From a virus, in IMG/VR virus record IMGVR_UViG_3300027754_000343, positions 1 to 27,940 of that record: a stretch of DNA of 27,940 bases; one strand, 5' to 3'. The first letter of the stretch is position 1, and the number at the start of each line of letters is the position of its first letter. Shown here in pieces: positions 13,571 through 21,190 of this stretch. The notes under the pieces are model-generated. The model searched no databases. It had not been told where the DNA came from and saw only the letters and a list, made by a program, of their open reading frames with translations. The position numbers and the translations under genes are program-made.

Positions 13571-15967
13571 ATGAGTTGTGACTCCAACTGCGGGACTTTG
13601 GTAATTGAGCTTTTGACCGGCGTGCCGGGGATCCCCGGACAATCTACAATGCCTGGACCGCAAGGGCCGCAAGGCGATCAAGGGCCAATTGGGCCACAGG
13701 GACCGCAAGGCATTCAGGGGCCGACTGGCAACACCGGCGCGCAAGGCGTTAAGGGCGACACTGGCGAGCAGGGCATTCAGGGAATCCAGGGCATTCAGGG
13801 GGTCAAAGGCGATACCGGCGCGACTGGATCCAAGGGAGATCAAGGCATCCAAGGTATCAAGGGCGACACCGGCAGTCAGGGCGCAAAGGGCGACACGGGA
13901 GCCAAAGGCGACACTGGTGCTCAGGGTATCCGAGGCATTCAAGGAGAGCAGGGAATTCAAGGCATCCAAGGCCTTAAAGGCGATACTGGGGCCAAGGGAG
14001 ATACCGGAGCGCAAGGGATCCAAGGGATCCAAGGGGAACAGGGTATTCAAGGCATTAAAGGCGACACAGGATCGCAGGGGCCAAAGGGCGATACTGGCGC
14101 AACTGGTGACAAATATGCTGCTGCCTCGAGCACCACTTTAACTTTGGCAATAGGCGCAAAAACATTGACTCTAGCGCCTCTCGGGCTGGCCTATACGCTG
14201 TCACAGCCGGTGATTATTGCAGCCACGGGGGGCACAATGACAGGCACCGTCACTAGCTATTCCCCGACGACTGGGGTAATGGTGGCGCAGATCACCAGTT
14301 TCACAGGCAGCGGATCCGCGAGTGATTGGACGGTTAATCTGTCTGGAGTCGCTGGCGTACAGGGGCCACAGGGGCCACAGGGTGAGCAAGGGCTAAAAGG
14401 CGATACCGGCGCGACTGGCGCGCAAGGCGTTAAAGGCGATACAGGAGCACAGGGAGCCAAAGGTGATAAAGGCGATACCGGCGACCAGGGAATTCAAGGA
14501 ATTCAAGGCATTCAAGGCGTCAAAGGGGATACGGGCGCACAAGGCGCAAAAGGAGACACTGGCAACACTGGCGCAACCGGGCAGGGACTTACAAACAAAG
14601 GCGCGTGGAACTCCGTAGACACTTTTGCTGCCTACGACATTGTGACCTTTGGCGGCAGCTCTTATGTAGCGTTGCAGGCAGTGCCCGCAAACACTCCCAC
14701 ATCAAACACTAGTTACTGGCAGTTGATGGCATCAAAGGGTGACACCGGTGCACAAGGAGTCAAAGGTGATACCGGATCCACTGGGGCCAAAGGGGACCAA
14801 GGAATTCAGGGCATCCAGGGCGAGCAAGGAAACCAAGGCATCCAAGGCATTCAAGGGATTCAGGGCGTCAAAGGCGACCAAGGCAACGTGGGACCGCAAG
14901 GCCCAGAGGGCACCGTCACCACCGTGGCAGGCAGCAGCGTAAGCGCATTCACTGGGGACGGGTCTGCAACGGTATTTGCTACGCTCGACGGCTACAACGG
15001 CACGGACGCAGGCGGGTACCTTGTCAGCGTTGGCGGCATTGACCAGCGCCCGACTACCGACTGGACAATCTCGAGCGCCAACAGCGGCACAATCACGTTT
15101 GCCAGCGCACCACCTAATGGCGCGCCGATTGTCGTTCGCGCGTTTGTGGGCACCGGCACAACCAACGGAAACGCGACGTTGTTACAAGGCCGCGCATTGG
15201 CGGATACTGCGCCGACAAATGGGCAAGCAGTGGTCTGGGATTCGGCAAACTCAACGTGGAAACCCGGCACCGTCTCTGGCGGCGGGAGCGACATTGGAGG
15301 CCGTGCGTGGGACTCTGCTGCGACATATTCCGAGGGAGATTTGGTGGCAACGTCTCAGCGGGAGGCATGGATCTGCATCCAAAATGACAACACAAACCAC
15401 GACCCAACCGAGGCCGAAAGCACATGGTGGGCACCACTGCCCGCTGATGCTGTAAGTTTGCAACTGAGGCCGGTAGCAACAACTGCACCAACAAATGGAC
15501 AAGGATTGGTGTGGGACTCGACAGCAGCAACTTGGGGGCCAAAAAATGTACTACTTAACATAGCCACAGGGTACAGAGCTCTTGCAGTTGGATCTGCAAC
15601 TACAAGCATTGATTCAGTTTTGCTCGGGTACTTAAATAGTTGTGAAAACAGTGGTGTTTCGATTGGAATAGCCACAACAGCATCTGAATATGCGGTTGCA
15701 ATTGGAAATCATTCATCTGCCGGAATTGGTTCTGTTGCAATTAATAGTCCATATGTTAGCGGAGGAAATTCGCTAGGAATTTTAACAGGCACAACAAACG
15801 TTGGTAATCAAGAAATCAGAATTGGAACTCCAAATATCCATTTTGACGTTTTCTTGGGCGCCTATGACATAAAGTCGATGAGTGCAAACCTTGGAAACGC
15901 CATAAACAAAATCAACGAAATCATCACTTGGGCTAACTCCACCGGCGCTAGTATTGCTCCTCTCTAA
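13571..15967 (+). CDS. Collagen-like tail fibre with binding modules
   Basis: This 798-aa fibre has three Gly-X-Y collagen-like blocks at about residues 17-181, 260-338 and 387-448. The repeats are of the [19 protein letters not shown] type, and such blocks form trimeric shafts. Between blocks 2 and 3 lies a 46-residue module like a carbohydrate-binding domain ([20 protein letters not shown], about 345-364). A second similar module is near 577-623 ([13 protein letters not shown] ... [11 protein letters not shown]). Two WDS..~TW.P motifs lie near 554 and 640. Residues about 662-736 carry YadA-head-like repeats ([33 protein letters not shown]). The end is a coiled coil. The protein likely attaches the virion to surface glycans. 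Its 3' part (from about 15545) is clearly more AT-rich, suggesting module exchange. Confidence 0.85.
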
Positions 15968-15971
15968 TTTT

Positions 15972-18611
15972 ATGCCACTCAACAAACCCACAGGCGACAT
16001 GCTTAACGCAGCGGGATCCGCAACCCCGCAGGGACTCGGCACCGCAGCCGCAGGCACGTCCGTAGCCTACTCTCGCGAGGATCACGTGCACGCTTTACCA
16101 ACGCTGTCTGGAGACGTGACAAACACGGGCACAGCGGTGACGGTTGCTAAGATCCAAGGCTCGCCAGTGTCTGCCAGTGCGCCAGGCAGTGGACAGGTGC
16201 TGACGTGGGACGGTACGCAGTGGGCACCAGCGCAGGGCACTGGTGGCGGTGGTGGCGGTGGCGCTAATGGCCTTACCTATTATCTCAACCAAGCCACAGC
16301 AGCAGACGCGCCAACAACGGGCATCACCGGCACGCCGCACCAGCTCGGGCGCAGTGGCGAGTCCGCGCAGACTACGCTAACAAGCGGCAGCCTCACGCAA
16401 AATGTTTGGACGTTGCTTGCTGGATTTGTCAGCGAATCAACGCCGATTGATCCCGACGTAACGCTGATCCCAGCAGGACTGTGGGATTTTAACGTGTGGG
16501 CATTTGGAGATGCGAACACGAACGCAGGCACCAGCATCCGGTGCCGCGTCTATAAATACAATGGCACAACGCTGACAGAGATTGCTTCGCCATCGAGCGA
16601 TCAGGTCATCAACGGCACCTCTGCGCAGTACTCGCTTTCGGTTTTAATTCCGCAAACCACGCTCCAATTAACCGACCGCATCTATGTCGCGATCGAGGCG
16701 CGCGCAACAGGCAGCAACCATAACGTCACGCTGCAGTTTGGCGACTCTACCCCGTCGCACGTTCATACGTCTTTGCCGCTGGTGGGCGGCACAGGCCTTT
16801 GGAAAAGTATTGCTGGAGTGTTACAATCACCGGCGTCGTTGCTTGTTAACGCAGACGTGGATGCTGCCGCGGGGATAGCATGGAGCAAAATTGCGGCCAT
16901 GGCGGGTACTGATTACCAGGCTCCAATTGGCACAATCTCTGGCATCGTCAAGGGCAATGGTGCTAACGCACTCACGGCAGCAGTAGCGGCGGACGTTGCC
17001 ACTCTGCTGGGCAGCCAGACAGCGGCGACTGTATATGCGGCACCTGCGGGTGCGGCAGGCACGGCCCAATTTAGAGCGTTGACGACAACCGATATCCCTG
17101 GGCTTGATGCGGAAAAGATCATTAGCGGCATTTTGCCAACAGCGCGCGGCGGGACTGGGACAACTGCCGGTATCACCGCCATTAATACCACGCAGATTGC
17201 ATCTCTGACGACTGCGCAGACGGCCAATTTGATCCCGCAGTTGACGACCTCCGGGTTGTTGTCGCTAACGCAGATGCCAACCATACCCGTGGCCAATGGC
17301 GGAACAGGAGCAACTAATGCCTCAAATGCAAAAGTTAATCTTGAAGTGCCACTAAAAGGGTATTGCAAATACGCAACCACTACAGCTCTTCCGACTAATA
17401 CAGCTCCAACAGCGCTAACTTTGACGGCAACTGCAAATGGAGCGCTTTCTGTTGACGGTGTTGCTGTTTCCGTTGGAGACCGCATTCTTGTAAAAGATGA
17501 AGCCGGTCAGCAAAACAACGGAATTTATGATGTAACAGTTGCAGGCAGCGGAAGCGCAGCATGGTCTTTAACTCGTTCGACTGATTTTAATCAAGGTTTT
17601 GAAGTTAATGTTGGAGACATTGTTCCAATTTTACTGGGATCAACTCTTGCAAATACTTTTTGGATTCAAAAAAGTGATGTTTCAACAATTGGAACAGATG
17701 TAATTACGTTTGTTAGTTCCGCGCTTGGGGGAATTCTTCCAGTAACCAAAGGCGGTACAGGAGCAACAGACGCAGCAACAGCACGCGCAAATCTAGGCAT
17801 CACTGGGGGCACGCCTACAGACGTGCAGGTGTTTTATGCTCCTGGTGGAACTTGGACAAAGCTTGCTGGGGCTAAAAGCGTTCAAATCACGCTTGTTGCT
17901 GGCGGGGGTGGTGGAGGCTCAGGCCGAGCGTCTGCACCTGGCACAGCAGCGGGCGGTGGTGGTGGCGGTGCTGGCGGGGGCAGGAGTTTTATCACCATTG
18001 AGGCGGCTTTGCTTGGAGCCACTGAACCCGTAACTGTTGGCAGCGGCGGCGCGGGTGGAGCTGCACAAACTGTTGGAAATAATGGAGCAGCTGGAGGAAT
18101 CGGAGGAGCAAGCTCATTTGGCCTTTGGTTGTCTGCTAGTCCAACTATTGCTGCTGGAGGAGGCACATCAGGTGGTGGAGGTGCTGCTGGCTCTGCTGGT
18201 ACTCGAGCTTTAAATTTTGGCTCAAGCGGAGGAGCGGGGTCTGGAACATTTGTTGTTGGCAGTGGAGGCGTAAACAGTGTTGCAGCAAGTGGTGGAGGTG
18301 CTGGGGGCGGTGTTACTACCGGAGGCGCAACTTCATCGGGGGGCACTGGGGGATTTAGCTATCAGTACAACGGCATTGCCGTTACCGCCGCACAACCTGG
18401 AGCCAATGGCCCCTCAGTTCCGACGGGATCACCATATGGTAGCGGAGGAGGAGGAGGGGGAACTTCAAGCGTGACAGCAAACGCAATGGCTGGAGGTAAT
18501 GGCGGCAATTATGGTGGCGGCGGCGGTGGAGGCGGGGCGTCGCAAGGATTCAGCTCTGGCGCAGGCGGCAATGGAGCAAACGGCATTGTTATTGTCACAA
18601 CTTACTTCTAA
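15972..18611 (+). CDS. Glycine-rich tail fibre / receptor-binding protein
   Basis: This 879-aa fibre starts with an anchor (MPLNKPTGDMLNAAGSATPQ), then a Gly linker near residue 90 and a beta domain to about 270. Three GGTG fibre repeats (ARGGTGTT, ANGGTGATNAS, TKGGTGATDAATARANLG) lie at about 393, 443 and 594. Between them is a conserved fibre domain, GDRILVKDEAGQQNNGIYDV (502-521). The C-terminal tip (about 640-877) is almost a polyglycine lattice ending GANGIVIVTTYF, as in glycine-rich tip domains that display receptor loops. ATG 15972 was preferred over TTG 15954 because it follows the previous stop as TAATTTTATG. The frame continues open past its TAA (see extension). AT-rich bases 17330-17740 suggest a swapped module. 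Confidence 0.8.
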   Translation: MPLNKPTGDMLNAAGSATPQGLGTAAAGTSVAYSREDHVHALPTLSGDVTNTGTAVTVAKIQGSPVSASAPGSGQVLTWDGTQWAPAQGTGGGGGGGANGLTYYLNQATAADAPTTGITGTPHQLGRSGESAQTTLTSGSLTQNVWTLLAGFVSESTPIDPDVTLIPAGLWDFNVWAFGDANTNAGTSIRCRVYKYNGTTLTEIASPSSDQVINGTSAQYSLSVLIPQTTLQLTDRIYVAIEARATGSNHNVTLQFGDSTPSHVHTSLPLVGGTGLWKSIAGVLQSPASLLVNADVDAAAGIAWSKIAAMAGTDYQAPIGTISGIVKGNGANALTAAVAADVATLLGSQTAATVYAAPAGAAGTAQFRALTTTDIPGLDAEKIISGILPTARGGTGTTAGITAINTTQIASLTTAQTANLIPQLTTSGLLSLTQMPTIPVANGGTGATNASNAKVNLEVPLKGYCKYATTTALPTNTAPTALTLTATANGALSVDGVAVSVGDRILVKDEAGQQNNGIYDVTVAGSGSAAWSLTRSTDFNQGFEVNVGDIVPILLGSTLANTFWIQKSDVSTIGTDVITFVSSALGGILPVTKGGTGATDAATARANLGITGGTPTDVQVFYAPGGTWTKLAGAKSVQITLVAGGGGGGSGRASAPGTAAGGGGGGAGGGRSFITIEAALLGATEPVTVGSGGAGGAAQTVGNNGAAGGIGGASSFGLWLSASPTIAAGGGTSGGGGAAGSAGTRALNFGSSGGAGSGTFVVGSGGVNSVAASGGGAGGGVTTGGATSSGGTGGFSYQYNGIAVTAAQPGANGPSVPTGSPYGSGGGGGGTSSVTANAMAGGNGGNYGGGGGGGGASQGFSSGAGGNGANGIVIVTTYF

Positions 18612-18755
18612 TCAATCGCCTGGGATGGTGTTGCTCCGTGGACTCCTCCAGAAAATTGTTACGTGCAACCTGTTACAAATTCACACGCTGGCATTGGTTG
18701 GACTTTTATAAACGGCGAATGGATCGCCCCAATACCTCAACCGGAAAACTTATGA
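18612..18755 (+). other. In-frame 47-codon extension of the fibre beyond TAA
   Basis: Directly after the fibre's TAA (18609-18611) the same frame runs open for 47 codons to TGA 18753-18755. It reads like a real phage fibre terminal domain: AWDGVAPWTPPENCYVQPV, then GIGWTFINGEWIAPIPQPENL. Many fibres end with such a 'y.pP.n~~~~~v~....~G~GW.~~nG~w~~P' segment. Its TGA overlaps the next gene's ATG as ATGA, the coupling style used throughout this genome. No ATG lies in frame. It is either a decaying end of the fibre cut off by a recent stop, a readthrough extension, or a small ORF with a non-ATG start. Confidence 0.55.
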
Positions 18756-18943
18756 AATACCTATTTGATCGACTTTCTGAACCTTCCACCTGGCGAGGCA
18801 TCATCTCCATGCTAACCGCATTGGGCGTTAAACTTCGCCCGGATCTAGCTGAGGCCATCATCAGCGGCGGGCTGTCTGCCATGGGGCTTATCAACGTCAT
18901 CCGCAAAGAAAAAGATGCTACTGGCACTCCTCCAAGCGCTTAA
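18752..18943 (+). CDS. Small holin-like / lysis-region protein
   Basis: This 63-aa protein opens the lysis cluster. It has an N-terminal amphipathic segment (RLSEPSTWRGIISMLTALGV, residues 7-26) and a hydrophobic helix (EAIISGGLSAMGLINVI, about 34-50) followed by a charged tail (RKEKDATG). The 'EPSTWRGI...LGV.L.P...~aI...gl~a~GLi.V~~~E' layout matches small holin-like proteins encoded before spanins in many phages. The start ATG lies in an ATGA overlap with the fibre extension, and the end overlaps the next gene by 29 bases. Holin activity is inferred. Confidence 0.55.
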   Translation: MKYLFDRLSEPSTWRGIISMLTALGVKLRPDLAEAIISGGLSAMGLINVIRKEKDATGTPPSA

Positions 18944-19172
18944 GTATTGGCTCGAGATCCAAGCAACTCGGGCAAAGTGGCAGTTGGAACGCGATATTGA
19001 AACTTATGTGGCGACCATTGAAAAAGACATTCTGGCGTCTCGCGCTTGTGGCGATGATGCCCGCGCTGATCGCCTCGTGCAGCACCTCGCGAGGAGTAGC
19101 GCCATCACGTTGCCTGCCGCAGCCGGAGGGGATCCTGCGCCTAGCAGCGGGACAAACGTACCAAGCCGCTGA
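18915..19172 (+). CDS. Candidate i-spanin (Rz-like)
   Basis: This 85-aa protein has a short hydrophobic N-terminus (LLALLQALKYWLEI, residues 2-15) that could anchor it in the inner membrane. A long charged helix follows (ATRAKWQLERDIETYVATIE, then KDILASRACGDDARADRLVQHLARSS), the usual coiled-coil periplasmic part of an Rz-type inner spanin. A candidate lipoprotein gene lies nested out of frame within it, the hallmark arrangement of Rz/Rz1 pairs, which fuse inner and outer membranes at lysis. The membrane segment is short, so the assignment leans on the context. Confidence 0.55.
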   Translation: MLLALLQALKYWLEIQATRAKWQLERDIETYVATIEKDILASRACGDDARADRLVQHLARSSAITLPAAAGGDPAPSSGTNVPSR

Positions 19173-19266
19173 CGGCGAAACGTGGTACTCTGCGCAAAGG
19201 TACCAAGCGCTCGAGCTGCAATTGATTGACGCACTGGGGGCGCTTAAGCAGTCGCAAAACCGATAA
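19006..19266 (+). CDS. Candidate o-spanin lipoprotein (Rz1-like), out of frame with Rz
   Basis: This 86-aa protein has a type II signal peptide. Basic residues (RPLKK) precede a hydrophobic stretch (FWRLALVAMMPALIASC), with a lipobox IASC ending at Cys25. The mature protein would be anchored in the outer membrane. It ends with a helical segment (YQALELQLIDALGALKQSQ) suited to binding an inner-membrane spanin. It starts inside the Rz-like gene in another frame and ends 94 bases past it. It is not as proline-rich as lambda Rz1. ATG 19006 was preferred over in-frame TTG 18997. The lipobox is seen directly; the spanin role is inferred. Confidence 0.6.
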   Translation: MWRPLKKTFWRLALVAMMPALIASCSTSRGVAPSRCLPQPEGILRLAAGQTYQAADGETWYSAQRYQALELQLIDALGALKQSQNR

Positions 19267-19277
19267 ATTTTACAACC

Positions 19278-19469
19278 ATGATGCGCGAGTTTCTTCAACA
19301 CTTGGACGGCAAAGCCGATGACATTGTCAAAGTCAATGCTGTTGGCGCTGTGGCTTTTGTCATTAGTTGGAGTGATTTTGACCATTATTTGCGAACCGCA
19401 GGACTGATCCTCGCGCTCGCGTATACCTCGTGCAAAATCTACCAAGCTGTCCAAGAAATCCGCAAATGA
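19278..19469 (+). CDS. Putative holin, two membrane segments
   Basis: This 63-aa protein has a charged N-terminus and a hydrophobic segment at about 20-31 (NAVGAVAFVISW). A short charged loop (SDFDHYLRT) follows, then a second segment at about 41-56 (AGLILALAYTSCKIYQ) and a basic end (EIRK). Size, two membrane spans and position directly before the endolysin (ATGA overlap) fit a class II holin, which permeabilises the inner membrane to release the lysin. Two adjacent ATG codons (19278, 19281) could encode two forms. No family motif was recognised. Confidence 0.6.
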   Translation: MMREFLQHLDGKADDIVKVNAVGAVAFVISWSDFDHYLRTAGLILALAYTSCKIYQAVQEIRK

Positions 19470-20086
19470 ACCTGTCCGCTCTTGGCATCAAAAGCATCAT
19501 TAGTTGGGAGTGCGGTGGCGAGGCCGAGTACAACAACGCACCGGAGTGGCCCGGAGAGTCTAGCGGCGTTACGATCGGTATCGGCTATGACCTAGGCATG
19601 ACGCCCGCCAATGAGATTGTCCAGGCGTGGGGGCCTTATGTCTCGAGCGACGATCTCAAGGTATTAGTTGGGCTATCCGGCAAGACAGGACATCGAGCGC
19701 AGGAGCTCCTGCCGCACGTCCGGCACCTGCGATTCTCGTGGGAGACGGCGTCTATGGTGTTTCGCGAGTCGACATTGCCGACACATTTCGTGCGGACGCT
19801 GCGGATCTATCCACAAACCGTTAACCTGCACGGCCACTGCGCTGCGGCACTTGTCAGCCTGGTGTTTAACCGTGGCCCAGCGCTAACCGGCGACCGGCGT
19901 ACCGAGATGGCAGACATTCAAGAGCTGCTTAAAGCCAACAATCTCAGCGCCATCCCCGAACGCCTTGAAGCCATGCAACGCCTCTGGCCAAACACTGGAG
20001 GACTGCGGCGGCGGCGGCGTGAGGAGGCGGATCTCTTTAGACTCGGACTTGCTTATGACACGCAAACCACAAGAGACGCAGTTTGA
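19466..20086 (+). CDS. Endolysin, GH24/pesticin-like muramidase
   Basis: This 206-aa lysozyme-like protein starts with the catalytic region: Glu15 in IISWECGGEAEYN, then PEWPGESSGVTIGIGYDLG (residues 26-44). Thr36 lies in TIGIGYD, the equivalent of the GH24 E...TIGxG core. Further family marks are a conserved helix and turn, ALVSLVFNRGPALTGDRRTEM (about 133-153), where FNRG is characteristic. It lacks a signal peptide, so it should need the neighbouring holin for export. It would cut the glycan strands of peptidoglycan at lysis. ATG 19466 overlaps the holin stop (ATGA), and an upstream in-frame TTG was rejected. Confidence 0.8.
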   Translation: MNLSALGIKSIISWECGGEAEYNNAPEWPGESSGVTIGIGYDLGMTPANEIVQAWGPYVSSDDLKVLVGLSGKTGHRAQELLPHVRHLRFSWETASMVFRESTLPTHFVRTLRIYPQTVNLHGHCAAALVSLVFNRGPALTGDRRTEMADIQELLKANNLSAIPERLEAMQRLWPNTGGLRRRRREEADLFRLGLAYDTQTTRDAV

Positions 20087-20237
20087 AAATCGGATGAAGC
20101 GGGCATCAGCATTTTGCGAAGTGCTTGTGGTGTCACTGCTTATACAAGCAATTCTCAATCTAATTTTTGAAAAACTAGGCGTCCAGTTGCGACTGGCAGT
20201 TTACGAGACCGCATTAATTTGGATGTTTTGCAAATAA
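20055..20237 (+). CDS. Small single-span membrane protein, lysis-associated
   Basis: This 60-aa protein has a basic N-terminus and a clear hydrophobic segment (residues 20-38, FCEVLVVSLLIQAILNLIF). A second, weaker hydrophobic stretch lies at the end (YETALIWMFCK). It overlaps the last 32 bases of the endolysin gene in another frame. Antiholin, pinholin or second-holin roles are possible from the context; none is shown. ATG 20094 is a possible internal start giving a shorter form. Confidence 0.5.
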   Translation: MTRKPQETQFENRMKRASAFCEVLVVSLLIQAILNLIFEKLGVQLRLAVYETALIWMFCK

Positions 20238-20240
20238 CCC

Positions 20241-20987
20241 ATGGCAAACGTCACTCGACGCTGGAAACGATTAATGGCTGTTGGGTGCACACATGGGCAT
20301 CTCGCGGATCAGGCGTTGCTCAAGCAGGTTTTAGCGTTTGAGGAACGGTGGAATCCGCACACCAGGATCCATTTAGGAGACGCCATTGACCTTGCCTGTT
20401 TACGCACCGGCGCAATAGGCACACCGGATGACGCGGCAGACCCGGAAGGGGATTTGGCAGATGGCCTAGCGTTTATCTCGAGGTTTCGCCCGCAGGTTTA
20501 TTTGCTGGGCAACCACGAAGCCAGATTGACGTCGCTCATGGAAAGCCCCAGGGCGATTGTATCGGCTTTGGCTTGTCGTATTTACCAACAGATTTTGGAT
20601 CGTGCAAAAGAGATCAAGTGTGAGGTGGTGGACTACAATTTTCAACACGGCTGGAGACAGTTTGGAGACTGTTTGTTTGGGCATGGCTACATGATAAATG
20701 AGGCCGCCGTACGCGATCACGCGGAAGCCGTTTGCGGCGGGACTGCTAGCAAGGTGGTGATTGCACACCTGCATAGGGTTACACAGGCAGAGGGACGCAA
20801 CAGAGCGCACCCAACAGGCTATTGCGTAGGGTGGCTGGGAGATCCGGCGCAGGCTGTATACGCTGCGAACCGGCGCGCCACAACTAGTTGGTCAAGAGGA
20901 TTTGCTTTTGGAGAGTATTGTGATAATGAGACAGTGATATGGCTCGCAAAAGAGACAAAGCACCAGACATTCAAACTCCCATTGTAG
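20241..20987 (+). CDS. Calcineurin-like metallophosphoesterase with Cys at motif I
   Basis: This 248-aa protein has the metallophosphoesterase motifs in order: motif I AVGCTHGHL (C16, H18), motif II HLGDAID (D47, D50), motif III LGNHE (N91-H92-E93), HG at 147-148 (FGHGY) and a final VIAHLHR (H176, H178). Motif I normally has Asp-x-His; here Asp is replaced by Cys16, which would change one metal ligand. The rest of the site looks intact. Phage enzymes of this fold include protein/nucleotide phosphatases and exonucleases, so the substrate cannot be told. It lies between the lysis and replication genes, and its end overlaps the next gene by 49 bases. Confidence 0.8.
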   Translation: MANVTRRWKRLMAVGCTHGHLADQALLKQVLAFEERWNPHTRIHLGDAIDLACLRTGAIGTPDDAADPEGDLADGLAFISRFRPQVYLLGNHEARLTSLMESPRAIVSALACRIYQQILDRAKEIKCEVVDYNFQHGWRQFGDCLFGHGYMINEAAVRDHAEAVCGGTASKVVIAHLHRVTQAEGRNRAHPTGYCVGWLGDPAQAVYAANRRATTSWSRGFAFGEYCDNETVIWLAKETKHQTFKLPL

Positions 20988-21190
20988 GTTGGCTAGAGCA
21001 ACTTGCGGACGAAATCAACGTGCCATTTGCTCCCGCAGGATGGTACACGCTGGCAGAAATTGCCAATAAACTGAATCGCAACAGACAATTTGTGGAGCGG
21101 CTTCTGGAGTCGAAAAAAGCTGAAAAGCAGTACTTTATGACGCGCAGATCTGATGGCAACAGGATGCGTATGATCCATTACAAGCTCTGA
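20939..21190 (+). CDS. Small HTH DNA-binding protein
   Basis: This 83-aa basic protein has a central helix-turn-helix: GWYTLAEIANKLNRNRQFVE (residues about 34-53), where TLAEIANKLN is the support helix and NRQFVERLL the recognition helix. A wing-like basic end follows (RRSDGNRMRMIHYKL). It could be a regulator of the early region. It starts inside the phosphoesterase gene and has no Shine-Dalgarno. Confidence 0.55.
   Translation: MARKRDKAPDIQTPIVGWLEQLADEINVPFAPAGWYTLAEIANKLNRNRQFVERLLESKKAEKQYFMTRRSDGNRMRMIHYKL

Follow-up and report, generated by a model that had tools for sequence, protein, structure and literature searches.

Organization of the Tail Fibre Region

The window analysed here, which corresponds to a whole metagenome-derived virus record of 27,940 bases, carries a glycine-rich tail fibre gene followed by a short segment that stays open in the frame of the fibre and, overlapping the end of this segment, by a further small gene (Table 1). 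The fibre gene likely starts at the ATG at 15972, with an additional in-frame TTG at 15954, and its product matches Gly_rich_2 of Pfam with 28.8 bits, above the cut-off of 24.3, and a PHROG of minor tail proteins at 6.7e-07. Directly 5' of this gene lies a second, collagen-like fibre gene (13571-15967; Pfam Collagen, 1e-46).

Past the fibre TAA, the same frame continues for 47 sense codons (18612-18752; SIAWDGVAPWTPPENC...GIGWTFINGEWIAPIPQPENL) and is closed by a TGA at 18753-18755. Both this open stretch and its ATGA overlap with the next gene had been described in the initial annotation, and their coordinates are confirmed. The 47 codons are made up of a TCA spacer and of 46 codons retained from a small gene, the first of which is ATC (18615); the residues read in the fibre frame around the joint include SIAWDGV, and GIGWTFINGEWIAP is a peptide of the remnant. 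The product of the next gene matches phrog_8494, of unknown function, at 0.0022, and its size and position, rather than a family match, suggest a holin-like protein. Further downstream, two overlapping ORFs in different frames (18915-19172 and 19006-19266), the second of which contains a lipobox-like LIASC, form what we take to be an embedded Rz/Rz1 spanin pair.

Table 1. Features at and behind the end of the glycine-rich fibre gene (positions in the window)
Feature	Position	Strand	Basis and remarks
Glycine-rich tail fibre gene	15972..18611	+	Sequence; ends ...GIVIVTTYF, TAA 18609-18611
TCA spacer	18612..18614	+	From the fibre stop to the site of the small-gene ATG in L008, L016 and L018 (TAATCAATG)
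Putative 5'-truncated small-gene remnant, Tfa N-terminal-like	18615..18755	+	Codons 17-62 of the L008 gene and TGA
Next gene, small putative holin-like protein	18752..18943	+	ATG 18752-18754 overlaps the remnant TGA as ATGA

A Separate Small Gene in a Close Relative

Relatives in IMG/VR were collected by means of the next gene, which gave eight loci, and the sequence upstream was read in all eight. The segment is present in only one of them, L008. Between this locus and the window, identity is 90% for the next gene and, in DNA, 86.8% over 18621-19264 and 87.7% over 19278-21021; judged from this similarity, L008 is closely related to the window in the lysis block. In L008 the fibre ends with ...ITTYF and TAA, and, after a TCA, an ATG opens a separate gene of 62 codons (MNYAVIN start), which terminates in the same ATGA overlap. 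The retained part of this gene is 68% identical to the 47 residues of the window. In comparison with L008, the window lacks 48 nt, namely the ATG and the 15 codons after it, and the remainder has the same length codon for codon. The L008 sequence common to both sides of the gap is AT only, so that a deletion of microhomology scale is possible.

In the other seven loci the sequence upstream of the next gene is different. In particular, in L007 and L009, whose next genes are 90-95% identical to that of the window, different fibre ends run straight into the next gene, which indicates that the presence of the small gene varies with the type of fibre. Furthermore, pS against L008 amounts to 0.54 in the remnant and to 0.25 in the next gene, and DNA identity to L008 is 12-20 of 24 within the remnant and 18-24 of 24 downstream of it. 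As L008 is thus more distant from the window in the remnant than in the next gene, the small gene appears to diverge together with the fibre and not with the lysis block.

Distribution of the Small Gene

A search with the L008 protein returned six loci and an alignment search built on the intact N-terminus returned 24; after removal of four re-fetched duplicates, 26 loci were examined jointly. The ATG is at the expected site in 25 of them, and in the remaining one (L052) it occurs one codon earlier. The fibres of these loci end mostly with TTYF or TAYF and a stop codon (TAA or TAG), located 1-3 nt before the ATG. Because the fibres of relatives stop at the same place, the TAA of the window is, on this comparison, best regarded as the natural, ancestral end of the fibre and not as a new nonsense mutation.

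Both searches could favour intact copies, as all or part of the sequence on which each is based falls in the stretch absent from the window. As a control for this bias, a profile restricted to the retained part (A3), with the window included, was used and identified 64 loci in IMG/VR. An own in-frame ATG is found 12-25 codons before the match in 62 of these loci, corresponding to 49 distinct proteins, and the other two (L080 and L084) are cut by the contig end. In 56 of the 62 ATG-bearing loci the stop of a gene of 100 aa or more lies at most 60 nt from the ATG, the spacing ranging from an overlap of 4 nt to a gap of 9 nt in 55 cases and being 37 nt in one; no such gene precedes the ATG in the remaining six, L067 (cut), L096, L099, L100, L104 and L116. 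The small gene and the upstream gene differ in frame in 47 of the 56 loci and share it in nine, and in none of the 56 does the upstream gene run into the segment without a stop. Contig-end cuts aside, no other truncated copy occurs among the 64 loci. In most relatives the length of the small gene is about 55-68 codons.

The initial annotation had read the segment as a tail of the fibre, unless relatives proved to carry it as a separate gene with its own ATG; this is precisely what is found in L008 and in 62 of the 64 loci, and the segment belongs, hence, to a separate downstream gene. The related suggestion that the message was once translated as far as 18755 is instead borne out, the segment being real coding sequence of a conserved small family. 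The third proposal, in which an unusual start serves a separate ORF, comes close: a separate gene is indeed present, but its start is missing, 48 nt having been lost in comparison with L008.

In the collection of cultured phages the remnant matches 23 records (E up to 10), and in the five that were opened the match falls within a separate gene, behind a tail-region or fibre gene, that starts at or near the previous stop. Among the genes matched by tblastn are gp23 of the Arthrobacter phages Argan and Truckee and gp35 of Arthrobacter phage Qui, which are likewise small and begin where the previous gene stops; they are about 101-111 codons long and share with the remnant an identity of only 36-47%. 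The intact-family profile identified in genome_contigs a single locus, an intact separate gene in a proteobacterial MAG, which says little about the host.

Relationship to Tail Fibre Assembly Chaperones

Six short intact relatives (L008, L015, L016, L017, L019 and L053) match phrog_14370, a family of 63 positions and unknown function, at 1e-08 to 3e-10 (L008, 7.3e-10; L015, 3e-10; L053, 3.1e-10), and L048 matches it more weakly (4.7e-05). The intact relatives cover this family from position 4, i.e., nearly end to end, whereas the window copy, without its first 16 codons, aligns alone to positions 19-61 of 63 with an E of 0.067; an alignment that begins only at position 19 is expected if those codons are gone. 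Longer relatives have the same N-terminus followed by Caudo_TAP (L049, 7.9e-22; L050, 5.9e-08; L051, 2.4e-21), phrog_14370 being listed for L049 and L051 and absent for L050. The tail fiber assembly protein of Escherichia phage Goslar is built in the same order, with phrog_14370 (7.4e-10) and then Caudo_TAP (2.8e-20). In a Pfam scan the remnant has no match, and the short relatives scanned lack the C-terminal Caudo_TAP part.

The small genes have in common with Tfa proteins (PF02413 Caudo_TAP; Mu gpU, PDB 5yvq; Goslar) the position right behind the fibre and the N-terminal domain; unlike them, the short relatives lack a detectable helical domain of Caudo_TAP at the C-terminus, and in the window copy the start codon is missing. 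When a family profile that included the longer proteins was used to search the PDB, the sole sequence retrieved was the Mu chaperone U (5yvq_B, 4.4e-10), in an alignment over positions 28-130 that covers largely the C-terminal part lacking in the short proteins.

In an AlphaFold model of the complete L008 product (mean pLDDT 90.1, pTM 0.73), strands are placed at residues 2-7 and 12-18. Foldseek found no match to this model in the PDB at E <= 0.001 (7ypx_a was at E 2.3) and three matches in a viral library, including one from Arthrobacter phage Qui. A second-look aligner applied to 63 chains gave a Z of at least 2 for only two, 7ypx_a, from a Pam3 fibre entry (Z 6.3, 59 aligned residues, rmsd 3.1, 12% identity), and 5yvq_B of Mu (Z 3.3, 49 aligned, rmsd 2.5). 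Both belong to solved structures of fibre chaperones, but, as a Z below 8 may stem from a common arrangement, these matches are supporting evidence and not proof. From its length, 7ypx chain a is presumably gp25 of cyanophage Pam3, whose N-terminal beta-sandwich binds a fibre with a glycine-rich domain (PMC9608196); the match to the L008 model is modest, and gp25 also has a helical trimerising domain.

Taken at the level of sequence, the small-gene family resembles the N-terminal, fibre-binding domain of Tfa chaperones and probably acts as a chaperone or helper in the folding of the fibre. Thus, a widespread and mostly unannotated family of about 60 residues, found behind glycine-rich fibres, looks like a stand-alone Tfa N-terminal domain.

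State of the Remnant

The remnant lies directly downstream of the fibre gene, as is typical of the family, and, in all 12 columns within it whose conservation reaches 85% or more across 33 intact short relatives, retains the family residue. Its pN/pS values against L008, L017 and L054 are 0.37, 0.28 and 0.27, respectively, and those among the same three relatives are 0.39, 0.29 and 0.32 (42 codons in each comparison). No decay is seen in the stops (none in 47 codons), in the conserved columns or in pN/pS, pointing either to a recent loss or to a short product still in use. The openness of the 47 codons is more than chance, because their translation can be aligned from end to end with a small, conserved phage family and keeps its conserved columns.

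In contrast to its relatives, the window copy lacks a start codon of its own at or just after the fibre stop. In its frame there is no ATG, the ATC at 18615 stands first, the GTG at 18663 is the only canonical start, and ATT, ATA and further ATC codons occur late. In addition, the N-terminal beta-hairpin predicted in the L008 model (residues 1-18) would be incomplete, as the missing residues 1-16 comprise one strand and most of the next.

Origin of the Remnant and Alternative Explanations

These observations are best explained, with a probability that we place at about 0.9, if 18615-18755 is a separate, chaperone-like gene that was recently truncated at its 5' end and that is in the frame of the fibre by chance. 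In this scheme, a separate small gene of the kind found directly behind glycine-rich and other tail fibres would have lost its first 48 nt, including the start codon, either by a small deletion or by an exchange of the fibre module that left a ragged joint, and its 3' three quarters would be left in the window. The remnant mimics a tail of the fibre past its stop because the number of missing nucleotides is divisible by three and because the small gene, with the ancestral TAA TCA ATG spacing, was already in the fibre frame. The loss is probably recent and the remnant is probably either untranslated or translated only poorly; a truncation of this type is an ordinary kind of gene loss.

A variant with the same origin differs only as to expression: ribosomes could re-initiate after the fibre TAA at the ATC at 18615 and produce a protein of 46 residues. 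In L008, L016 and L018 the ATG is 3 nt past the fibre stop, so that translation of the small gene probably began by coupled re-initiation, and the ATC is now at that very place; the absence of decay also fits a product still in use. However, bacterial initiation at ATC is very poor, the sole canonical start remaining in frame, the GTG, comes late in the remnant, and most of the hairpin in the L008 model is removed. We therefore consider continued synthesis of the truncated product unlikely, and it is very unlikely that re-initiation at AUC supplies a low amount of a chaperone fragment devoid of the hairpin. If it did, loss of the start region would act as a dial that lowers the supply of chaperone and alters how the fibre tip is finished.

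It is also quite unlikely that the missing 48 nt are an error of assembly or consensus and that the phage carries an intact small gene. The record is metagenome-derived, and a near-identical contig (L020/G001, IMGVR_UViG_3300027736_000272), 94-99% identical over long aligned stretches, ends at 17915 of the window, inside the glycine-rich fibre domain and before the junction, in a region that may be hard to assemble. The junction is found in no second contig, which would also fit a minority variant: exact strings of the window, taken from the junction and from within the remnant, had no matches in collections that may omit records very near the window, and a relaxed junction pattern over viral_contigs gave six stretches, all six of them chance matches with no homology on either side. 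Against an error, the joint is clean, with only the AT mentioned above common to its two sides in L008, and assemblers seldom drop 48 unique nucleotides. As to an intact second copy in the window, none was revealed by a phrog_14370 search, which also missed the remnant itself, and the remnant used as query against its own record matched only itself.

The initial annotation had also raised variation of the fibre tip controlled by the stop codon, in which readthrough of the TAA would add an alternative tip of 47 residues to some fibres. The frame is indeed open and continuous with that of the fibre, but in relatives the small gene has its own ATG and, in the 47 loci out of 56 in which it is out of frame with the preceding gene, such a fusion could not be produced; moreover, TTYF followed by a stop is the common fibre ending, and a run-in without a stop is not seen among the 56 loci. 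Readthrough was thus rejected as highly improbable. The portions of the literature on stop codon readthrough and phage tail fibers that were consulted, including PMC7918605, contain nothing that bears directly on this case, and the "readthrough" referred to in the consulted part of PMC3091744 is the E/E' frameshift of P2. Finally, a recent nonsense mutation in a longer fibre, also proposed at the outset, would account for a frame open past the stop, but it was rejected as extremely improbable, given that the fibre stop, TAA or TAG, has the same location in relatives (mostly after TTYF or TAYF) and that the segment is there a separate gene.

An open frame behind the stop codon of a phage fibre, therefore, need not be a hidden fibre tip; in the truncated-gene reading preferred here, it would be the leftover of the partner gene of the fibre.

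Other Arrangements of the Family

Some of the loci retrieved show further arrangements of these small genes. In L096, at about 1238-1420, two Tfa-N-like small genes are in tandem, the upstream ORF (MRYAIVDDLTKVV...GSFIPPPEDA) ending 11 nt before the matched gene. In L093, L095, L096, L099 and L100, near 1432-1614, the small genes have a longer N-terminal part with a repeated motif (GYYVDPAYYVEP or GYYIDPAYYVEP), which suggests an internal duplication.
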